A stretch of 20,510 nt of DNA from a virus, in the IMG/VR virus record IMGVR_UViG_3300025759_000905, positions 1 to 20,510 of that record. One strand, given 5' to 3'. The position numbers were made by a program, and so were the translations under genes. The notes below the pieces were generated by a model. It saw nothing but the letters and a program-made list of their open reading frames with translations, was not told the origin of the DNA and searched no databases. Of this stretch, positions 1,638 through 19,993 are shown one piece after another; position 1 is the first letter of the stretch, and every line of letters starts with the position of its first letter.

Positions 1638-2207
1638 ATGTCCGAGACGATGAAGATCCACAAGTTGTATCCTAATACACTTGAACTGAAACTGGGCAGC
1701 CATGAGGCTGCTTGTTACGACATCCATGCTCATTTGCGTGGACCCGTCACTCCCGAAGATGTTGCACCATTGATTCGTGAGATCAAGTGGTATGATGGAT
1801 ATAACCAACCACATACCACCATGCCTGATGTGGTGTTCGACAGTGATGTTCCTATCTGTACATTCACTTTGAATCCAAAGTGTCGTGCTTTGATTCCGAC
1901 TGGTATGGTAATGGATATTCCCATCGGTTTCTCTGCCCGTCTGCATCCAAGATCAGGACTGGCAGTGAAGACTGGAATTACTTTGATCAATGCAGAAGGT
2001 GTCATTGACTCTGACTATTGTCAGGAAGTTTTCGTTCCACTTCACAATACCACAAACACACCATTCAAGATTACCCACGGCGATCGTATCGCTCAGGTTG
2101 AGATCATTGAATATGCTAGACATGTTAGATATGTCACCTACACAGAAGCAACACCAGAATCACAAAAGACCAACCGCGTCGGCGGTTTCGGATCTACAGG
2201 AGTATAA
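1638..2207 (+). CDS. dut: dUTPase (deoxyuridine 5'-triphosphate nucleotidohydrolase)
   Basis: Hydrolyses dUTP to dUMP and pyrophosphate, keeping uracil out of DNA and supplying dUMP to the thymidylate synthase encoded downstream. All five motifs of the trimeric dUTPase family can be read: motif 1 'AACYDIHA' (24-31), motif 2 'HPRSGLA' (103-109), motif 3 'INAEGVIDSDY' (117-127, with the catalytic Asp), motif 4 'HGDRIAQ' (147-153) and motif 5 'NRVGGFGSTG' (179-188). At 189 residues it is longer than the usual ~150, because about 40 extra residues lie between motifs 1 and 2. After motif 3 the usual Arg-Gly is replaced by Cys-Gln. First gene after the promoter, with GGAGA 5 nt from the ATG; the next gene starts 1 nt after its stop. 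Confidence 0.93.
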   Translation: MSETMKIHKLYPNTLELKLGSHEAACYDIHAHLRGPVTPEDVAPLIREIKWYDGYNQPHTTMPDVVFDSDVPICTFTLNPKCRALIPTGMVMDIPIGFSARLHPRSGLAVKTGITLINAEGVIDSDYCQEVFVPLHNTTNTPFKITHGDRIAQVEIIEYARHVRYVTYTEATPESQKTNRVGGFGSTGV

Positions 2208-2208
2208 T

Positions 2209-2604
2209 ATGACACGCGATGAACTTTTAATGTATCACTCAGAAATATGCAAATCTGCACAGCAGTTGATGTCTCTTAAAAATAGAGATTATGCAGGACA
2301 AGAGGGAAATGAACCCTTTGCAAACTTTACTCGCGTAGAGTCTATGGGTATCTGTAGCACCGAGCAAGGTTTTATGACTCGCATCACTGACAAAATGAGT
2401 CGTCTTTCCTCCTTCTTGAATTCCGGTAAAATGCATGTTGAAGATGAAAGTTTTCGTGATACAATAGTGGATGTGATCAATTACATGGTTTTACTTTCTG
2501 CTTACATTCAAGACAAAGATGAAGAAACACAATCTGAAAATTCTAAATTAGAATTGCTTATGGAAGAAAGAAACCATGAGAGTATGAGGGACAATGGCTT
2601 CTGA
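2209..2604 (+). CDS. DUF1599/Nmad1-type (nucleotide-modification-associated) all-alpha protein
   Basis: 131 residues from the ATG at 2209, with AGGAG at 2198-2202. The product is helical, with conserved-looking blocks 'KNRDYAG' (24-30), 'FANFTRVESMG' (37-47), 'TDKMSRLSSFLNSGK' (60-74) and 'ESFRDTIVDVINYMVLL' (80-96). This arrangement (K-x-x-DY, N-x-x-F-x-x-F, a K-M-x-R helix, then a D-x-x-x-D-x-x-NY helix) is what I recall for DUF1599, also called nucleotide modification associated domain 1, which is related in fold to MazG-type NTP pyrophosphohydrolases. A function in nucleotide hydrolysis or in handling modified nucleotides is inference. The acidic C-terminal tail (about 103-131) is not part of the domain. 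It overlaps the polymerase start by 11 nt, so co-expression with replication is likely. Confidence 0.75.
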   Translation: MTRDELLMYHSEICKSAQQLMSLKNRDYAGQEGNEPFANFTRVESMGICSTEQGFMTRITDKMSRLSSFLNSGKMHVEDESFRDTIVDVINYMVLLSAYIQDKDEETQSENSKLELLMEERNHESMRDNGF

Positions 2605-6375: not shown

Positions 6376-7756
6376 ATCTGTATTTACAGAAAAAATTATT
6401 TTAGAGAACTTAGTTTACAATTTTGATTATGCTAAGAAAATTATACCTTTCTTGAAAGAAGAATATTTTCATGGCAAAATCGATAGAGTAATTTTTTCTG
6501 AGATAAGTTCTTTCTATGAAAAGTATTCTGCATCACCCACTAAAGATGCAGTTAATATTCAGTTGAACAAGAGAAAGGACTTAAATGAAAGTGAATTTCA
6601 AACTACTCTAGAGTACTTGGAGTCATTTCATGATGACGAGTCGTTGAATCAAGAATGGCTAAAAGATGAAACTGAAGAGTTTTGTAAAGACAAAGCAGTT
6701 TATAATGCAATTATGGAATCCATTCAGATTATCGACGGAAAATCCAAAGAGAAAACTCAGGGATCTATTCCTACGATTCTTTCTGATGCACTTTCTGTTT
6801 CTTTTGATACTCACATCGGACACGATTACATTGAAGATTCAGAAATTCGCTTTGAATTTTATAATAGAACAGAAAAGAAAGTTCCTTTCGACTTAGATTT
6901 TTTCAACGATATCACCGGAGGAGGCACTCCGACTAAAACTCTAAATGTGGTTATGGCCGGTACGGGTGTGGGTAAATCTATGTGGTTGTGTCACCACGCA
7001 GCACATTGTCTTGCACAGAACAACAATGTTCTTTATATAACATGTGAAATGGCAGAAGAAAGAATCGCAGAAAGAATCGATGCAAATCTTTTGGATACTG
7101 ATATTAGTGATTTGAAACTTCTTGGTAAGGATAAATATGACAAGAAGATTGAGAATCTTAAACAGACAGTTAAGGGTAAACTTATTATCAAAGAGTATCC
7201 AACTGCAACTGCGACAGCGAATCACTTTCGATCTCTTCTGGAAGAATTAAAACTCAAAAAGAATTTTATTCCTGATGTTATTTTTATTGATTATTTGAAC
7301 ATTTGTGCATCCGCAAGACTTAAGGGTGGAAACATTGGATCATATTTTTTGGTGAAGTCCATAGCGGAAGAATTAAGAGGACTTGCAGTGGAACACAATG
7401 TCCCATTGTTCACTGCAACACAAGTAAATAGAGGTGGTTATTCTAATAGTGATATGGGATTGGAAGACACTAGTGAATCCTTTGGGCTTCCTCAAACAGC
7501 AGATTTCATGTTTGCTTTGATCTCCACCGAGGAATTGGAAGAATTGAATCAAATACTTGTAAAGCAACTTAAAAACAGATATAATGATGCTGCTGTGAAC
7601 AAGAAGTTCGTTCTTGGATTAAACAGGTCTAAGATGAAATTTAGCGATGTTGATCCATCACAGCAAACTTTGATTGGCTCTGGTCAGGACATGAAAACGG
7701 AAATGGAAGAAAAATTTGCAAAGACTTCTACAGTTGTTGATGATTGGAAATTTTGA
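6368..7756 (+). CDS. 41: Replicative DNA helicase, DnaB family (T4 gp41-like)
   Basis: A hexameric 5'-3' helicase that unwinds the fork and works with the primase encoded next. The sequence runs parallel to T4 gp41, including '[13 protein letters not shown]' and '[12 protein letters not shown]' before the motor domain. Walker A is 'GTGVGKS' (198-204 from the GTG), 'YITCEMAEE' follows at about 223-231, Walker B is 'VIFIDYLN' (304-311), the sensor-like 'FTATQVNR' is at 348-355, and a basic 'QLKNRYND' segment near 400 could supply the arginine finger. It is 462 residues from GTG 6368, or 471 if ATG 6341 is used; T4 gp41 is ~475. It overlaps uvsX by 8 nt and the primase by 1 nt (TGATG), so the three are almost certainly co-translated. 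Confidence 0.95.
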
Positions 7757-11559: not shown

Positions 11560-12579
11560 ATGAAAATGATCAATGCTATTATTACATCCTGTCTTTTCAG
11601 TGGAGTTGCTGTAGGACAGGATATGGACACGATGACTCTTGTCCAGATGGACGCCGCAACGCGAACATCACTCAATGACAATCACCTCAGTCTCAATGTT
11701 GGTGGTTTCATGCAGGCTGGTTGGGAGTTTTCCAACGGTGGCGGACTTCCCGCACAGAACGGATTTGCGGTTGACCGCGCCCGTCTTACCTTCTCAGGAG
11801 ATATGAGCAATGAGAGTTTCTCTTACCTCGTCAGTGGTGAGTGGTCAGATGTTACGAACAGTTTCGATCTGCTTGATGCTGTCGTTACTCTTCGCATGTT
11901 CGACGAAGCAAACATCCGAGTCGGACAGTTTGTTCCCCAGTTCTATGCTGGATTCGTCACCGACCCAACCCAACTCACAACCCTCAACTACAGCGTCTCA
12001 GCCCTCACCTTTGGTCAGGGACGAGGAGCAGGTATCGAAGCCTTCCGATCCTTCGGAGACTTTGAAGTCAGCGTCTTCTACAACAACGGTTTCGACACCG
12101 CTGGTGCAGGAGTCGGTGACAACAACTACGCCATCGGTGTTGCTGCGACTTACCATGTGGATGCTGCTGTTTCTCTTAACGGTGGTTGGGCTTATGATTC
12201 TGTCACGGAAGGTGTGAACAGTTTCACTTTCGGTGGTGAAATCACTGAGGGTCTTCTCACTCTCGACGCCGATTGGATCGTCAATGATGCAGGTGATGGT
12301 AGTCTCAACAACTGGTCTATCGTCACCACCGCTGCCTATCAGTGCATGGATGACTTTGAAGGGTTTGCACAGTGGGAAATTGGTGACTATGATGGTAGTC
12401 TCAACCTTCTCACCGTAGGTGGTAACTACGATCTTGCTCACGGACTTGTCTGGACTAACACCTTCGGGTATGCTCTTGAGAGTCTTGGTAGCAACTTCGT
12501 AACTGATAATACTGGATGGCGTGCTGGTTCCTCATCGGGACAGTTCGTTGTTCGGAGTGGTATTACGCTTAGTTTCTGA
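11560..12579 (+). CDS. Outer-membrane porin-like beta-barrel protein with signal peptide
   Basis: 339 residues with a strong ribosome site (AAGGAG just before the ATG at 11560). The N-terminus is a signal peptide: Lys2, a hydrophobic run to about 16, and a probable cleavage after 'AVG' (17-19). The rest alternates polar and hydrophobic residues with many Gly, Asn, Asp and aromatic residues, as in transmembrane beta-strands. It ends 'GITLSF', the C-terminal phenylalanine signature read by the outer-membrane assembly machinery. 'FAVDRARLTFSGDM', 'FSYLVSGEW', 'DAVVTL' and 'IRVGQF' resemble the phosphate-selective porin O/P family (recognition from memory). It should form a pore in the host outer membrane; the solute is unknown. 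It follows the reductase by 22 nt. No stop codons or frameshift are seen. Porins are rare in phage genomes, and the gene was probably acquired from a bacterium. Confidence 0.85.
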   Translation: MKMINAIITSCLFSGVAVGQDMDTMTLVQMDAATRTSLNDNHLSLNVGGFMQAGWEFSNGGGLPAQNGFAVDRARLTFSGDMSNESFSYLVSGEWSDVTNSFDLLDAVVTLRMFDEANIRVGQFVPQFYAGFVTDPTQLTTLNYSVSALTFGQGRGAGIEAFRSFGDFEVSVFYNNGFDTAGAGVGDNNYAIGVAATYHVDAAVSLNGGWAYDSVTEGVNSFTFGGEITEGLLTLDADWIVNDAGDGSLNNWSIVTTAAYQCMDDFEGFAQWEIGDYDGSLNLLTVGGNYDLAHGLVWTNTFGYALESLGSNFVTDNTGWRAGSSSGQFVVRSGITLSF

Positions 12580-12601: not shown

Positions 12602-12859
12602 ATGGCTACAAAAGCAAATGAAATGACATGTTCGAAACCATGCTGCCCATGTGGGTGGCTCGGTAAGCGAGTCCTCGGACTCTCACTATGTGTGTGGATT
12701 CTTCTGTTCGCAGTGATTCCTCACACCGCTCGCGGTGTTTCTTGGAGTGCAAGAACCATCTCTGGCCTCTGGGACGGTGGTGTTCGCGTCGTAGAGCGTG
12801 GTGATCGTCCAATGCGTGGTGACCCGGGCGCTCGACGCCCTGCTCGCTCTGCTGAGTGA
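12602..12859 (+). CDS. Small cysteine-rich membrane protein, unknown function
   Basis: 85 residues, starting 22 nt after the porin stop, with a good AGGA ribosome site before the ATG at 12602. I recognise no family. An N-terminal cluster 'CSKPCCPCGW' (Cys10, 14, 15, 17) precedes a hydrophobic helix (about 22-40) that could be an anchor or an uncleaved signal. The C-terminal 45 residues are arginine-rich ('RGDRPMRGDPGARRPAR'). The codons are GC-rich, like the porin's. Its position suggests an envelope role linked to the porin. The strong ribosome site and placement support a real gene; an antisense frame of the same length (12606-12869) is judged a shadow. Confidence 0.6.
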   Translation: MATKANEMTCSKPCCPCGWLGKRVLGLSLCVWILLFAVIPHTARGVSWSARTISGLWDGGVRVVERGDRPMRGDPGARRPARSAE

Positions 12860-16705: not shown

Positions 16706-16964
16706 TTTGCTCTAACGACTTTCTTATCCAAAGTAGATCAGTTTTTATTTCTGCTAAATCTGTCATTAACGCTGCCCTAAATGTTTCACTGGTATCCAGT
16801 CTATTATCCAGTGAAATTAACTCTTTTTCGATGAAATCCAGTCTAGAGTTTGTCGAAGCGTCAGTTGCACTTACATACCAAACTGCGGATCCAAATGTAA
16901 TAAACCATCCAACAAGTAAGCTAACCATCGAAATTCCCAGTCCCTGTTTATGTTGTTCGGTCAT
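16695..16964 (-). CDS. Small membrane protein with coiled coil (possible inner-membrane spanin)
   Basis: 89 residues: a short polar N-terminus, one transmembrane helix (about 11-32, 'SMVSLLVGWFITFGSAVWYV'), then a long heptad-like helix (40-86) with regularly spaced Leu/Ile ('RLDFIEKELISLDNRLD', 'LAEIKTDLLWIRKSLE'). A single N-terminal anchor plus an extracytoplasmic coiled coil is the layout of inner-membrane spanins, and a lipoprotein gene lies at the end of the same block. However, the same shape is shared by many small phage membrane proteins, so this is a topology-based suggestion. The start overlaps the stop of the 859-residue protein as ATGA. Confidence 0.65.
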   Translation of the reverse strand: MTEQHKQGLGISMVSLLVGWFITFGSAVWYVSATDASTNSRLDFIEKELISLDNRLDTSETFRAALMTDLAEIKTDLLWIRKSLEQNGG

Positions 16965-19540
16965 TTTAATGAGTCTCTCTTTTTCTTGTGTTTAAATCCA
17001 ATAATGGACATATATGGTGTATCTTTAATATACCTATGTAGTAATTCGTCGGTTCCCATCTCTCCGGCCCCATGCTCTTCGGGGATATTTTGATGCTTTT
17101 CTCCCTTTCTGTGCTTATTGTCTGCTCGGTTTGATTTCACTGATCTTACTCTTAAATTTCCATCACCGTTATTTAGAGCATTGCCATCTTTGTGATCTAT
17201 ATCTTTCCCATCACCCTTTTTGGCTTTGCCTTTTTTGATCATTTTTCTTCTAGCGAGAACACGATTCGATCTTTTCTTTCTCTGTTTCGCTTTACCGTGA
17301 AACAGTCTGTACTCTCTCTTATAATCTCTCTTTGAAGGATCGTCTTGTTCTGCCAAAAATATTTCATTCACATCAATGTCATCGGTTATCTCTCCGCCTG
17401 TTACGGGTATTTTCTTTTCTTTACCGTTGACGGTAATTATGTTATATGAGCCAGCAGACATTGTTTCGCTCGTCATATCTCCACTAAGAGATGACTCAAT
17501 TCCACTCATTGCTTCGTGTGTGAGCAAATCGGGATTCTGGGAATAAAACATACTGAGTTTGTCTGGGGTGAAGATATAGTCGCTGCTTCCTTTGATATCT
17601 ACTGCTTCTGTCACTCTTTCAATTTTATTTCCTTTAAGTTCAAATCTAAATGTTGGTTGTGTTATTCTTTTTCGAGATTTTGCTCGAATACCAACTACCG
17701 TTTTATCTTTGAGACTGTCAATAAACTCTCCGTCAGATTCACCTATTTCTGTGAACCCGTCTGGGAAAAGAAGATGAGTGGCGGCCGCCGCTTCATTGTC
17801 TCCGAACTTCATTCTTCCAGTAAGTGCTTCATGAATTAGGGCTCTCTTGAAGTCTTCATTCTTATCAAGATATTTGATTAGATTCTTCTGAATTGTAGGG
17901 GTTACCTTTTCCCTATGAATCCCCCAATTATACTCGTCTTTGATTTCTCCATTGTCATCTAGCATTTCTTCGAACCAAGGCTTACCCGCGTGTCTCATTT
18001 TTGCTTCTTCGAGATTGTTTGGATCAATCATTTTTGTGGGCATTTTTGACAATGCCTTTGTTATAGAATTCAGTGCATTTTGAGTGAACTTTGCATCTTT
18101 TGTGGTTAGATTGGAAGCGATTGCAGCAAGAGCCTCTGCTGATTTCTTTGAACTTTCAGATGACAGTTGAATCTGTCCATCCATTTTTACGCTTATTCGG
18201 TTATCACCGGCAACAATATCTGTTTTTGGTTCAGGATCTCCCGCGATTCCAAGTTCACTGCTGTGTTTAAGATCTGCTCTTAGTTCCTGTGGAATATTTT
18301 TCATTGTTTTCTTTGCAAGATCAAACGAGTCTTTCGAGAAAGACATGAGATTGTTGTTAGTCATCGTATCTCTTTGACTTATCTGCTCGTCACTAAATCC
18401 TGCTGACTTGAGTCCGGTATAGATCAGCGCCCATTCAAACTGAACACCTTTACTCTGTGTAAGAGGTTTAGTTGGTCTTGGGTATGAAATCGCATCTAAA
18501 CTAATTGGTGATCCCATAGGCATTGATAAATCTAATGCTTCTGCGCCTGCTTGATCTGCTGCTGCTTGCACATCAGCGTCGTCAACTTCCGCAGCGGGAT
18601 CTCTTCCGGTTTCCGCTTGGGATGCTACATCAGATCCTGCAACACCTCCTGTGTCTGGTTTAGCCTGTCCCTCTGGTTCTTCCGCACTAATCTCTGCTGA
18701 AAGATCCCCAAACACTTGAATTGATGTTGGTGTCTGCTTGAACTCACCTTTTTTGATGTGATTCATAACATCAGTAATGGTTGGTTTTTGTTTATCTACT
18801 CCGCCCTTGAGAACAACATCATCATCGGGATCAGGACGAACAACTACCTCTACCTTGTTCTGTTTTCTCTTGCGAATAAGATAAAGATCTGGACGGAGAT
18901 ATTTTGCTGCTTCGTCTAGGAGTGTTTGTTCTCCGAGGAATGCAAGGAACTCTTGTTCATCGAACCATTCGACGCTTTCGTTAGCGGTGTTCAGGTGATG
19001 ATGAACTGTATTCATCATCTCTGTTGCGGCCGCCCGGTTGATGTGTCTTGGCATGTGAGTTCTAAACTTGTTGATATTCTTTTCATTTGCCGCTGCTCTT
19101 ACTTTGGTGGCAGATGTGCCTTCGACTCCTTCTGAGTCTGGATCTCTGTGTCCTGCATTTACGACATTAACTTTGATGCCAACTGCACTTGCTATTTTTC
19201 CAGCCCTGGCTGACATTTCTTCGTGTCTGTCTCCACCTACCACGAGATGTGCATGACTGTAACCTTTTTTCTTTGCATGTTCAAACGCATGTCCCATGTG
19301 ACGAATACTGTCATCCGAGACAACATTTGCATTAGGTAATATCTTTTTTGCCATTCCGTGTTTCACATCAGGTGGAAGAGGATTTTTTTCTCCGCCGTGA
19401 GATTGACTAAGGATAACCGCGTGATCACCACCCACTTTTCTTGCATGTGATATTACTGCATCTGCTAGTTTCGCATGTCCGGCGTGTGGTGGGTTCATTC
19501 TACCGAATGAAAATACAAAGTGTCGTTCTTTTTTAGGCAT
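16961..19540 (-). CDS. 859-residue fusion: nucleotidyltransferase-like, putative PD-(D/E)XK-like and HNH domains
   Basis: N-terminus (1-150) is a cytidylyltransferase/NMNAT-like Rossmann domain: 'SFGRMNPPHAGH' (11-22, the HxGH nucleotide site), 'VVGGDRHEE' (100-108) and 'GTSATKVR' (141-148, equivalent to the ISSTxxR motif). A low-complexity Ala/Asp/Glu/Pro linker (280-340) follows. The middle part has 'GVQFEWALIY' (Glu369) and 'PKTDIVAGDNRISVK' (Asp441, Lys452), an arrangement resembling a PD-(D/E)XK core with Ser-x-Lys instead of Glu-x-Lys (inference). 'EALTGRMKFG' (571-580) is a block I recall from marine phage proteins of unknown role. The C-terminus has an HNH_3-like unit 'KDIDHKDGNALNN' (779-791) with 'NLRVRSVKSNRADN', preceded by basic residues (740-775). 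It heads the minus-strand late-type block, with GGAG at 19552-19549. Size and place suggest a virion-associated or DNA-processing protein; the substrate is unknown. Confidence 0.8.
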   Translation of the reverse strand: MPKKERHFVFSFGRMNPPHAGHAKLADAVISHARKVGGDHAVILSQSHGGEKNPLPPDVKHGMAKKILPNANVVSDDSIRHMGHAFEHAKKKGYSHAHLVVGGDRHEEMSARAGKIASAVGIKVNVVNAGHRDPDSEGVEGTSATKVRAAANEKNINKFRTHMPRHINRAAATEMMNTVHHHLNTANESVEWFDEQEFLAFLGEQTLLDEAAKYLRPDLYLIRKRKQNKVEVVVRPDPDDDVVLKGGVDKQKPTITDVMNHIKKGEFKQTPTSIQVFGDLSAEISAEEPEGQAKPDTGGVAGSDVASQAETGRDPAAEVDDADVQAAADQAGAEALDLSMPMGSPISLDAISYPRPTKPLTQSKGVQFEWALIYTGLKSAGFSDEQISQRDTMTNNNLMSFSKDSFDLAKKTMKNIPQELRADLKHSSELGIAGDPEPKTDIVAGDNRISVKMDGQIQLSSESSKKSAEALAAIASNLTTKDAKFTQNALNSITKALSKMPTKMIDPNNLEEAKMRHAGKPWFEEMLDDNGEIKDEYNWGIHREKVTPTIQKNLIKYLDKNEDFKRALIHEALTGRMKFGDNEAAAATHLLFPDGFTEIGESDGEFIDSLKDKTVVGIRAKSRKRITQPTFRFELKGNKIERVTEAVDIKGSSDYIFTPDKLSMFYSQNPDLLTHEAMSGIESSLSGDMTSETMSAGSYNIITVNGKEKKIPVTGGEITDDIDVNEIFLAEQDDPSKRDYKREYRLFHGKAKQRKKRSNRVLARRKMIKKGKAKKGDGKDIDHKDGNALNNGDGNLRVRSVKSNRADNKHRKGEKHQNIPEEHGAGEMGTDELLHRYIKDTPYMSIIGFKHKKKRDSLK

Positions 19541-19556
19541 ATGAATATCTCCACTT

Positions 19557-19564
19557 TATTTATA
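19557..19564 (-). promoter_or_regulatory. T4-type late promoter-like box
   Basis: The minus strand reads TATAAATA, the exact T4 late-promoter consensus, at the only sizeable gap upstream of the eight-gene minus block. I found no second exact copy in the window by eye. It directly follows the T-run of the terminator. Expected initiation, about 6 nt downstream near 19551, would place the ribosome site GGAG (19552-19549) almost at the transcript start, which is unusually tight and lowers confidence. Confidence 0.5.
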
Positions 19565-19593
19565 AAAAAACAGGGGAGCGAATGCTCCCCTGT
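19564..19593 (-). terminator. Rho-independent terminator, minus direction
   Basis: A perfect 10-bp stem, 19593-19584 with 19579-19570, with loop ATTC (minus strand) is followed by a run of seven T (19570-19564). It would end transcripts of the exonuclease and NUMOD-like genes before the late-type block begins. Confidence 0.88.
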
Positions 19594-19648
19594 CGGGTCC
19601 GTTGGAGTTTGCTGCGTTTGGATCACCTCCTGACTTATGTCTGGACCC
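19564..19648 (-). ncRNA. Candidate structured RNA carrying an extended Shine-Dalgarno sequence
   Basis: On the minus strand this 85-nt segment starts with GGGTCC (19648-19643), which can pair with GGACCC (19600-19595) plus one wobble pair. The loop between them contains AGGAGGTGATCC (19631-19620), complementary to the last bases of bacterial 16S rRNA. It ends in the terminator hairpin. TATATAAG immediately upstream (19658-19651) could be a -10 element, though no good -35 is seen. No properly spaced start codon follows the Shine-Dalgarno sequence; a GTG overlapping it would open 23 codons running through the terminator. A small RNA, a leader or a processed 3' end are all possible. The opposite strand instead resembles the 16S 3' end itself. 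Confidence 0.4.
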
Positions 19649-19651
19649 AAC

Positions 19652-19993
19652 TTATATAGTAATCTTTTTCTCTACAAACCGAAAATTTTTGTGATGATTT
19701 CTTTTTCCGGAGATTACTTCATAAATTGCGGACTTATTCAGGGATTTTTCCCTACAAAAACGCATCATATTGTTTACTTCCACTAATACACCGTCTGGAT
19801 CAGTGAAAATGTAGGTATATTTTTCTTGTTTTTTTGTTTCTGTTTCTTTGTTCCATACCCATATTTCATTTATTTTCTTAAATTCACCGTTGTGTAAATT
19901 ACAAAATCTTTTCCTCCACATAGAACTTTGTGCATCTTCGTTCATTTTCACCCATGTGGGTGTGTTTTGTTTATTTACATGATCAACATTCAT
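19652..19993 (-). CDS. NUMOD-like small DNA-binding protein
   Basis: 113 residues. The C-terminal half (about 60-108) reads 'YIFTDPDGVLVEVNNMMRFC', then 'LNKSAIYEVISGKRNHHKNF'. This pattern (F-x-D-P-x-G, a V-x-N-x-x-x-F-C-R-E helix, then a helix ending S/A-G-K-x-x-x-H-K) I associate with the small helix-turn-helix modules found with HNH and GIY-YIG homing endonucleases. The N-terminal half ('SMWRKRFCNLHNGEFKKI') is charged and unrecognised. No nuclease motif is present in this protein, so it may be a stand-alone DNA-binding fragment. The start overlaps the exonuclease stop as ATGA. A terminator lies 59 nt beyond its stop. Confidence 0.65.
   Translation of the reverse strand: MNVDHVNKQNTPTWVKMNEDAQSSMWRKRFCNLHNGEFKKINEIWVWNKETETKKQEKYTYIFTDPDGVLVEVNNMMRFCREKSLNKSAIYEVISGKRNHHKNFRFVEKKITI

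Follow-up and report, generated by a model that had tools for sequence, protein, structure and literature searches.

A phage RNA element, probably of an undescribed family, predicted to pair with the 3' tail of 16S rRNA

Phages are known to act on ribosomes through proteins and tRNAs, and the 3' tail of 16S rRNA offers a site that serves in maturation as well as in initiation. Small RNAs derived from 3' UTRs lie after a stop codon and comprise an AU-rich stretch, a structured body and a terminator. Shine-Dalgarno (SD) sequences that lack a start codon can stabilise mRNAs from the 5' side (PMC7509114), and phage proteins that target host ribosomes are among the subjects treated in PMC10914614. 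Here we describe a phage element that, as judged from sequence comparison, very probably represents a real, apparently undescribed family of RNAs pairing with the tail of the 30S subunit. It lies in a virus record of the IMG/VR type, 20,510 bases long, which was analysed as a whole and is referred to below as the window; the DNA polymerase encoded there shares about 50% identity with its nearest deposited relatives, the polymerases of T4-like cyanophages.

The element and its match to the 16S tail

The minus strand of the window carries, in this order, genes for a PD-(D/E)XK exonuclease and a NUMOD-like protein, the element (5'-GUUGGGUCCAGACAUAAGUCAGGAGGUGAUCCAAACGCAGCAAACUCCAACGGACCCGACAGGGGAGCAUUCGCUCCCCUGUUUUUUU) and a gene for a cytidyltransferase-like protein (Table 1). 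The plus strand reads CTGCGTTTGGATCACCTCCT at positions 19612-19631, and we reproduced the observation of the first-pass annotation that this stretch agrees at 19 of 20 positions with the 3' end of E. coli 16S rRNA, which we take to be CTGCGGTTGGATCACCTCCT. On the minus strand, the core presumably complements about nt 1527-1540 of 16S rRNA (E. coli numbering). Its 14 nt are the longest exact complement of the 16S tail in the window; a reversed-target control reached 9 nt, and in 300 first-order Markov windows the longest match never exceeded 12 nt, a length attained in only three of them. The match beats both kinds of control, which bears out the annotation's view that a chance origin is very unlikely.

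The minus strand is predicted to fold into a GGGTCC/GGACCC stem that holds the SD-like core and is followed by a strong terminator hairpin. Its minimum free energy is −39 kcal/mol, compared with a mean of −21.4 kcal/mol for shuffled sequences (z = −5.75), and none of 200 shuffles equalled it. Fold and reading-frame analysis thus agree with the earlier description of an enclosed SD-like core that has no usable start codon and precedes a terminator. We take the motif TATAAATA beyond the hairpin to be of the T4 late-promoter type. Compared with Rfam 15 at the curated gathering score, the element of the window, of L004, of L005 and of L048 matched no family, and the open-access literature yielded no description of a 16S-tail antisense RNA in phages; within this scope of Rfam and open-access literature, we regard the element as a new RNA family.

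Table 1. Features of the element and of its flanking genes in the window
Feature	Position	Strand	Basis
Core AGGAGGTGATCCAA (= AGGAGGUGAUCCAA), 14 nt, perfect complement of the 16S 3' tail	19618..19631	-	Sequence match; near-invariant in relatives
Enclosing stem, 5' arm UUGGGUCC; ninth pair extends to 19651	19643..19650	-	Fold; compensated pairs in group A
Enclosing stem, 3' arm GGACCCGA; ninth pair extends to 19592	19593..19600	-	Fold; compensated pairs in group A
Intrinsic terminator, ACAGGGGAGC-AUUC-GCUCCCCUGU hairpin and U run	19564..19593	-	Sequence and fold
TATAAATA, late-promoter-like motif of the next gene, directly after the terminator	19557..19564	-	Sequence
TATATAAG, TATA-like, just 5' of the stem, possible own promoter	19651..19658	-	Sequence; window's group only
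Upstream gene, 113 aa, I-HmuI NUMOD-like C-terminal domain	19652..19993	-	Domain comparison
Downstream gene, 859 aa, cytidyltransferase-like, HNH-like C-terminus	16961..19540	-	Domain comparison

Conservation of core and stem in related phages

This arrangement is found again in related phages, all of them known as uncultured contigs: 26 distinct sequences were collected, 21 of them strict. Three genes (the downstream gene, the upstream gene and that of the exonuclease) served as queries in the collection of relatives, together with DNA pattern scans, whose matches were accepted only when intergenic and accompanied by stem, terminator and late-promoter-like motif. Other matches to the core pattern, with varied 3' extensions, were rejected; they were mostly coding, many reading GGDP in one frame. 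The first-pass annotation had named a lack of conservation in related phages as the finding that would speak against the element; stem, core, terminator and position proved to be kept, with compensatory changes.

The 21 strict members share the same base at ten of 13 core positions. At the remaining three, which all face a U of 16S rRNA, only A and G occur, so that a G keeps the pairing as a G.U wobble. Base 14 is A or G and faces what we take to be U or C in two common versions of the bacterial tail. Relatives keep the core of 13-14 nt plus one to three further pairable positions, 14-17 in total. For the 13 members first tested, 14-17 contiguous positions paired with the better-matching tail at −26.5 to −32.5 kcal/mol, compared with −20.3 kcal/mol for the best of 3000 shuffled 28-mers against the 16S tail. 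By this pattern of substitutions, the core behaves like a strand that forms an RNA duplex with 16S rRNA.

On 16S rRNA, the complemented stretch begins at the base of helix 45 and comes close to the 3' end; as the bases 5' of AGGAGG are unconserved, it ends about where mature 16S rRNA ends. Such a span would also suit pairing with the precursor or mature 30S tail for other ends, namely a block of 16S 3' maturation, subunit storage or nuclease guiding. However, it is the target site alone that suggests roles of this kind, and the bases matching the 16S precursor past the mature end are not conserved; we consider them improbable.

The weaker similarity to helix 45 (CGCAG) reported earlier is present in the window but not in the relatives, which lack this extension; members have unrelated bases on either side of the core, and the single, mismatched 16S-like extension is confined to the window. 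Captured host rDNA, which the annotation had offered as the simpler alternative, is contradicted by the covariation of the stems and by the family's 16S similarity stopping at the tail. Its proposal of a plus-strand anti-SD RNA fails as well, since the A-to-G changes in the core preserve pairing with 16S rRNA for a minus-strand RNA alone. What stands of that interpretation is a structured minus-strand RNA with an extended SD sequence and no start codon, which could bind the 30S subunit. In a single lineage, within group B (L067, L068, L070, L270-L273, L275, L276), a conserved CTGAACCTACGGATG 3' of the core resembles 16S helix 45, the 3' half of which we take to be GAACCTGCGGTTG; this resemblance may be due to chance.

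From one phage group to another, the enclosing helices have different sequences; within every group compared, they carry compensatory base changes, the mark of a structured RNA. In group B (11 sequences, including close relatives), four of 17 pairs show double changes (8 cells) and 97.1% of the cells are paired; the covariation score was reached by none of 500 shuffles, and slid controls gave zero or one double-change pairs. In the hand-aligned stems of groups A, C and D, three compensated pairs, including a G-C/G.U/A-U series, were seen in group A (four sequences only) and four further ones in groups C and D taken together. In 22 of the 26 members, the enclosing helix surpasses those of shuffled flanks at p ≤ 0.05. 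Many members also have a short CCCT, CCCC or CTCC on the 3' side of the core that could engage part of AGGAGG, with much of UGAUCCA left open; such an open stretch would resemble the exposed loop of antisense RNAs.

These changes bear on a possible role at the level of DNA, in which the element would, for example, serve the adjacent homing-endonuclease-like protein as its target or protected site, or be rDNA that was captured. While the I-HmuI NUMOD-like DNA-binding domain of the upstream gene would fit such a site, the compensated stem pairs argue against it, as do the A/G changes in the core, which go in one direction and keep RNA pairing, and L144, in which the relative of the upstream protein has no recognisable NUMOD part and the element is still present. 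We therefore hold a DNA-level role to be very improbable.

Members of the upstream NUMOD-gene family sit 5' of the element in nearly all cases. When the 420 nt downstream of this gene were scanned for complementarity to the 16S tail, the distribution was bimodal, with runs of 13-17 in the presence of the element versus at most 10 in its absence; a reversed tail gave runs of at most 9, and the degenerate member L284, which is the same place as L072, scored just 10. A whole-contig search with GGRGGTGRTCCR found the element once per strict member and the reversed pattern in none of those IMG/VR contigs; an extra match in G003 reads GGDPF in an open frame. Together with the Markov and reversed-target controls, these counts rule out chance; the element is neither a chance match nor captured rDNA.

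Five of the 26 sequences (L274, L280, L285, L281 and L284) have degenerate cores; these could be copies in decay, or sequences matched to another tail. Several relatives have the upstream gene without the element at that place. The element pattern had no match in six deposited genomes of the cyanophage group and one match in a single-cell record. In the group of L288 and L296, the contigs have no element behind the upstream gene but contain AAGGAGGTGATCCAGCC in an apparently non-coding stretch elsewhere. The sites noted for this sequence, 17 nt complementary to the CTGG-type 16S tail, are L323 (G034) near 745 and, on the minus strand, L324 (G038) near 713, away from the upstream gene in contigs without the element at its usual place.

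A second, distinct intergenic hairpin, AGGAGGTGATCCA(A/G)nTATCTC(C), was noted in other phages, at L008, L012, L019, L021, L027, L028, L030, L041, L042, L050, L056 and L058, and also in the genomes L209, L229, L236 and L258, the Gram-positive sites resembling prophages. Its GGAGGTG can pair with TATCTCC, the upstream stop often overlaps (TAGGAGG), and it often stands ahead of scaffold-like or terminase-like genes, with no normally spaced start codon after it. This family may be another 16S-tail element. L058, a Streptococcus-type phage contig, additionally holds an Rfam SpF41 sRNA (RF02435) at 6583-6688 (-).

Genomic setting and possible roles

The sole start-like codon near the core is a GTG that overlaps GGAGGTG and is common to the members. 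No conserved open reading frame begins there in the members compared, the frames being unrelated and running from 3 to more than 25 codons; a start codon at suitable spacing followed by a conserved frame, as would characterise a ribosome-binding site, was thus not found. The SDs of the window's own genes are all short, e.g. GGAG. As an extended SD sequence, the element might nevertheless be thought to be an extended ribosome-binding site or standby site of a gene, given that S. aureus uses extended SD pairing (PMC13009471). Besides the missing start codon and frame, the terminator and the late-promoter-like motif, which set the element apart from a downstream gene with its own short SD, speak against this reading, the least probable of those we considered.

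An AlphaFold model of the upstream protein (pLDDT 90) matches I-HmuI over part of its length (E 0.011). The next structural match, AcrVA3, was weak (E 0.5) and uninformative, and an RNA-binding role of the protein was set aside. Searches of deposited phages with this protein returned mostly homing-endonuclease-type genes and no close relative. A gene for bS21, a possible partner of the element, was found in none of the 14 contigs and three deposited genomes tested. Elsewhere in the window, a phosphate-selective porin O/P-like gene at 11560-12579 (+) may be host-derived, an ORF similar to it standing near the element in L144, and a small cysteine-containing ORF (MATKANEMTCSKPCCPCGWLGKRVLG...) at 12602-12859 (+) has relatives in L080 and L081. 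In the related phage L004, a DruA-domain protein (1731-2537 (+); Pfam PF14236, E 2.9e-21) is encoded between the exonuclease and the NUMOD gene.

In the relatives, the element is followed by a different, equally strong terminator hairpin, stable but divergent in sequence, and then by TATAAATA or TATACATA. The element stays before the terminator while the surrounding genes change: depending on the group, the mRNA ahead of it encodes exonuclease and NUMOD proteins, RuvC-like and NUMOD proteins, or a NUMOD and a small membrane protein. In the window's group, the element lies about 10 bases or less from the upstream stop or overlaps it (L005).

We tentatively suggest, as the most likely role, that the element yields a terminated RNA that works in trans as a decoy for 30S subunits. 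We favour this reading because the complement spans the whole tail, exceeding what initiation needs and much exceeding the phage's own ribosome-binding sites, because the element persists while the preceding mRNA changes, and because it has a strong terminator end, like 3' UTR-derived small RNAs. The RNA would be the 3' end, formed by the terminator, of a short transcript from upstream, and its stem-loop would present a complement to the whole single-stranded 16S 3' tail, over 14-17 positions, far above a normal ribosome-binding site. The RNA might be freed by cleavage within the AU-rich sequence on the 5' side of the stem, or be transcribed from a promoter at that place; it could then pair with the 30S tail as a separate molecule, occupy the anti-SD sequence in trans and restrain initiation on SD-dependent mRNAs. 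The fuller proposition, of a phage RNA decoy that is antisense to the entire free 16S tail, ties up 30S subunits and shifts mRNA choice, with its variable core bases fitted to the 16S tail of each host, is conceivable but more doubtful.

Several observations count against a decoy in trans. In many of the fold models, part of AGGAGG is base-paired within the element, its mean unpaired probability being near 0.4. The TATA-like motif is present in just four of 26 members, all from the window's group, so that a promoter of its own was rejected as a general feature. In addition, the phage's own SD-led late genes would be restrained too, and there are the five degenerate cores and the relatives that carry the upstream gene but no element in that place.

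The decoy in trans and a role in cis, as part of a 3' UTR, form the main pair of rivals, and the present data fit both. In cis, the upstream mRNA would retain a 30S subunit at its end and be shielded from decay, or the bound subunit would affect termination or transcription-translation coupling at the terminator. The position of the element 3' of the same small gene, near or overlapping its stop in the window's group and just before the terminator, would suit such a role, and start-less SDs can stabilise mRNAs (ompA, ermC, lacZ; PMC7509114). However, the known cases are 5' leaders, the terminator hairpin already guards 3' ends, and the element persists as the mRNA ahead of it changes between groups; we judge a role in cis less likely than the decoy. 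An RNA family with a conserved part antisense to the 16S tail would amount to RNA-based control of the 30S subunit itself. As the partner sequence of the element is exactly known, the pairing idea is directly testable by compensatory mutation.

Comparison with described systems

If it acts in trans, the element would be of a new kind; on function, we conservatively file it with the start-less SD elements. STAB-SD and start-less SD stabilisers (aprE, gsiB, SP82 phage mRNA, ompA, ermC) likewise have a strong SD-type complement to 16S rRNA with no need of a start codon, here with 14-17 pairable positions, and exert their effect without translation, sometimes beside a stem-loop (PMC7509114). They are, however, ordinary SDs in 5' leaders, whereas the phage element is a complement of the whole tail, placed inside a stem-loop at the 3' end, after a stop codon and before a terminator. 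With 3' UTR-derived small RNAs, the phage element, as known by its sequence, shares position and layout, including a 3' end predicted at an intrinsic terminator (hairpin and U run) in the window and its relatives; the known ones mostly target mRNAs, whereas the conserved part of the phage element is antisense to 16S rRNA. The extended SD-aSD sites of S. aureus also pair past the core SD with the 16S tail (PMC13009471) but lead to a start codon, which the phage elements do not. Finally, ribosome-acting phage proteins (PMC10914614) would share their target machinery with the element, while the agent here would be an RNA.
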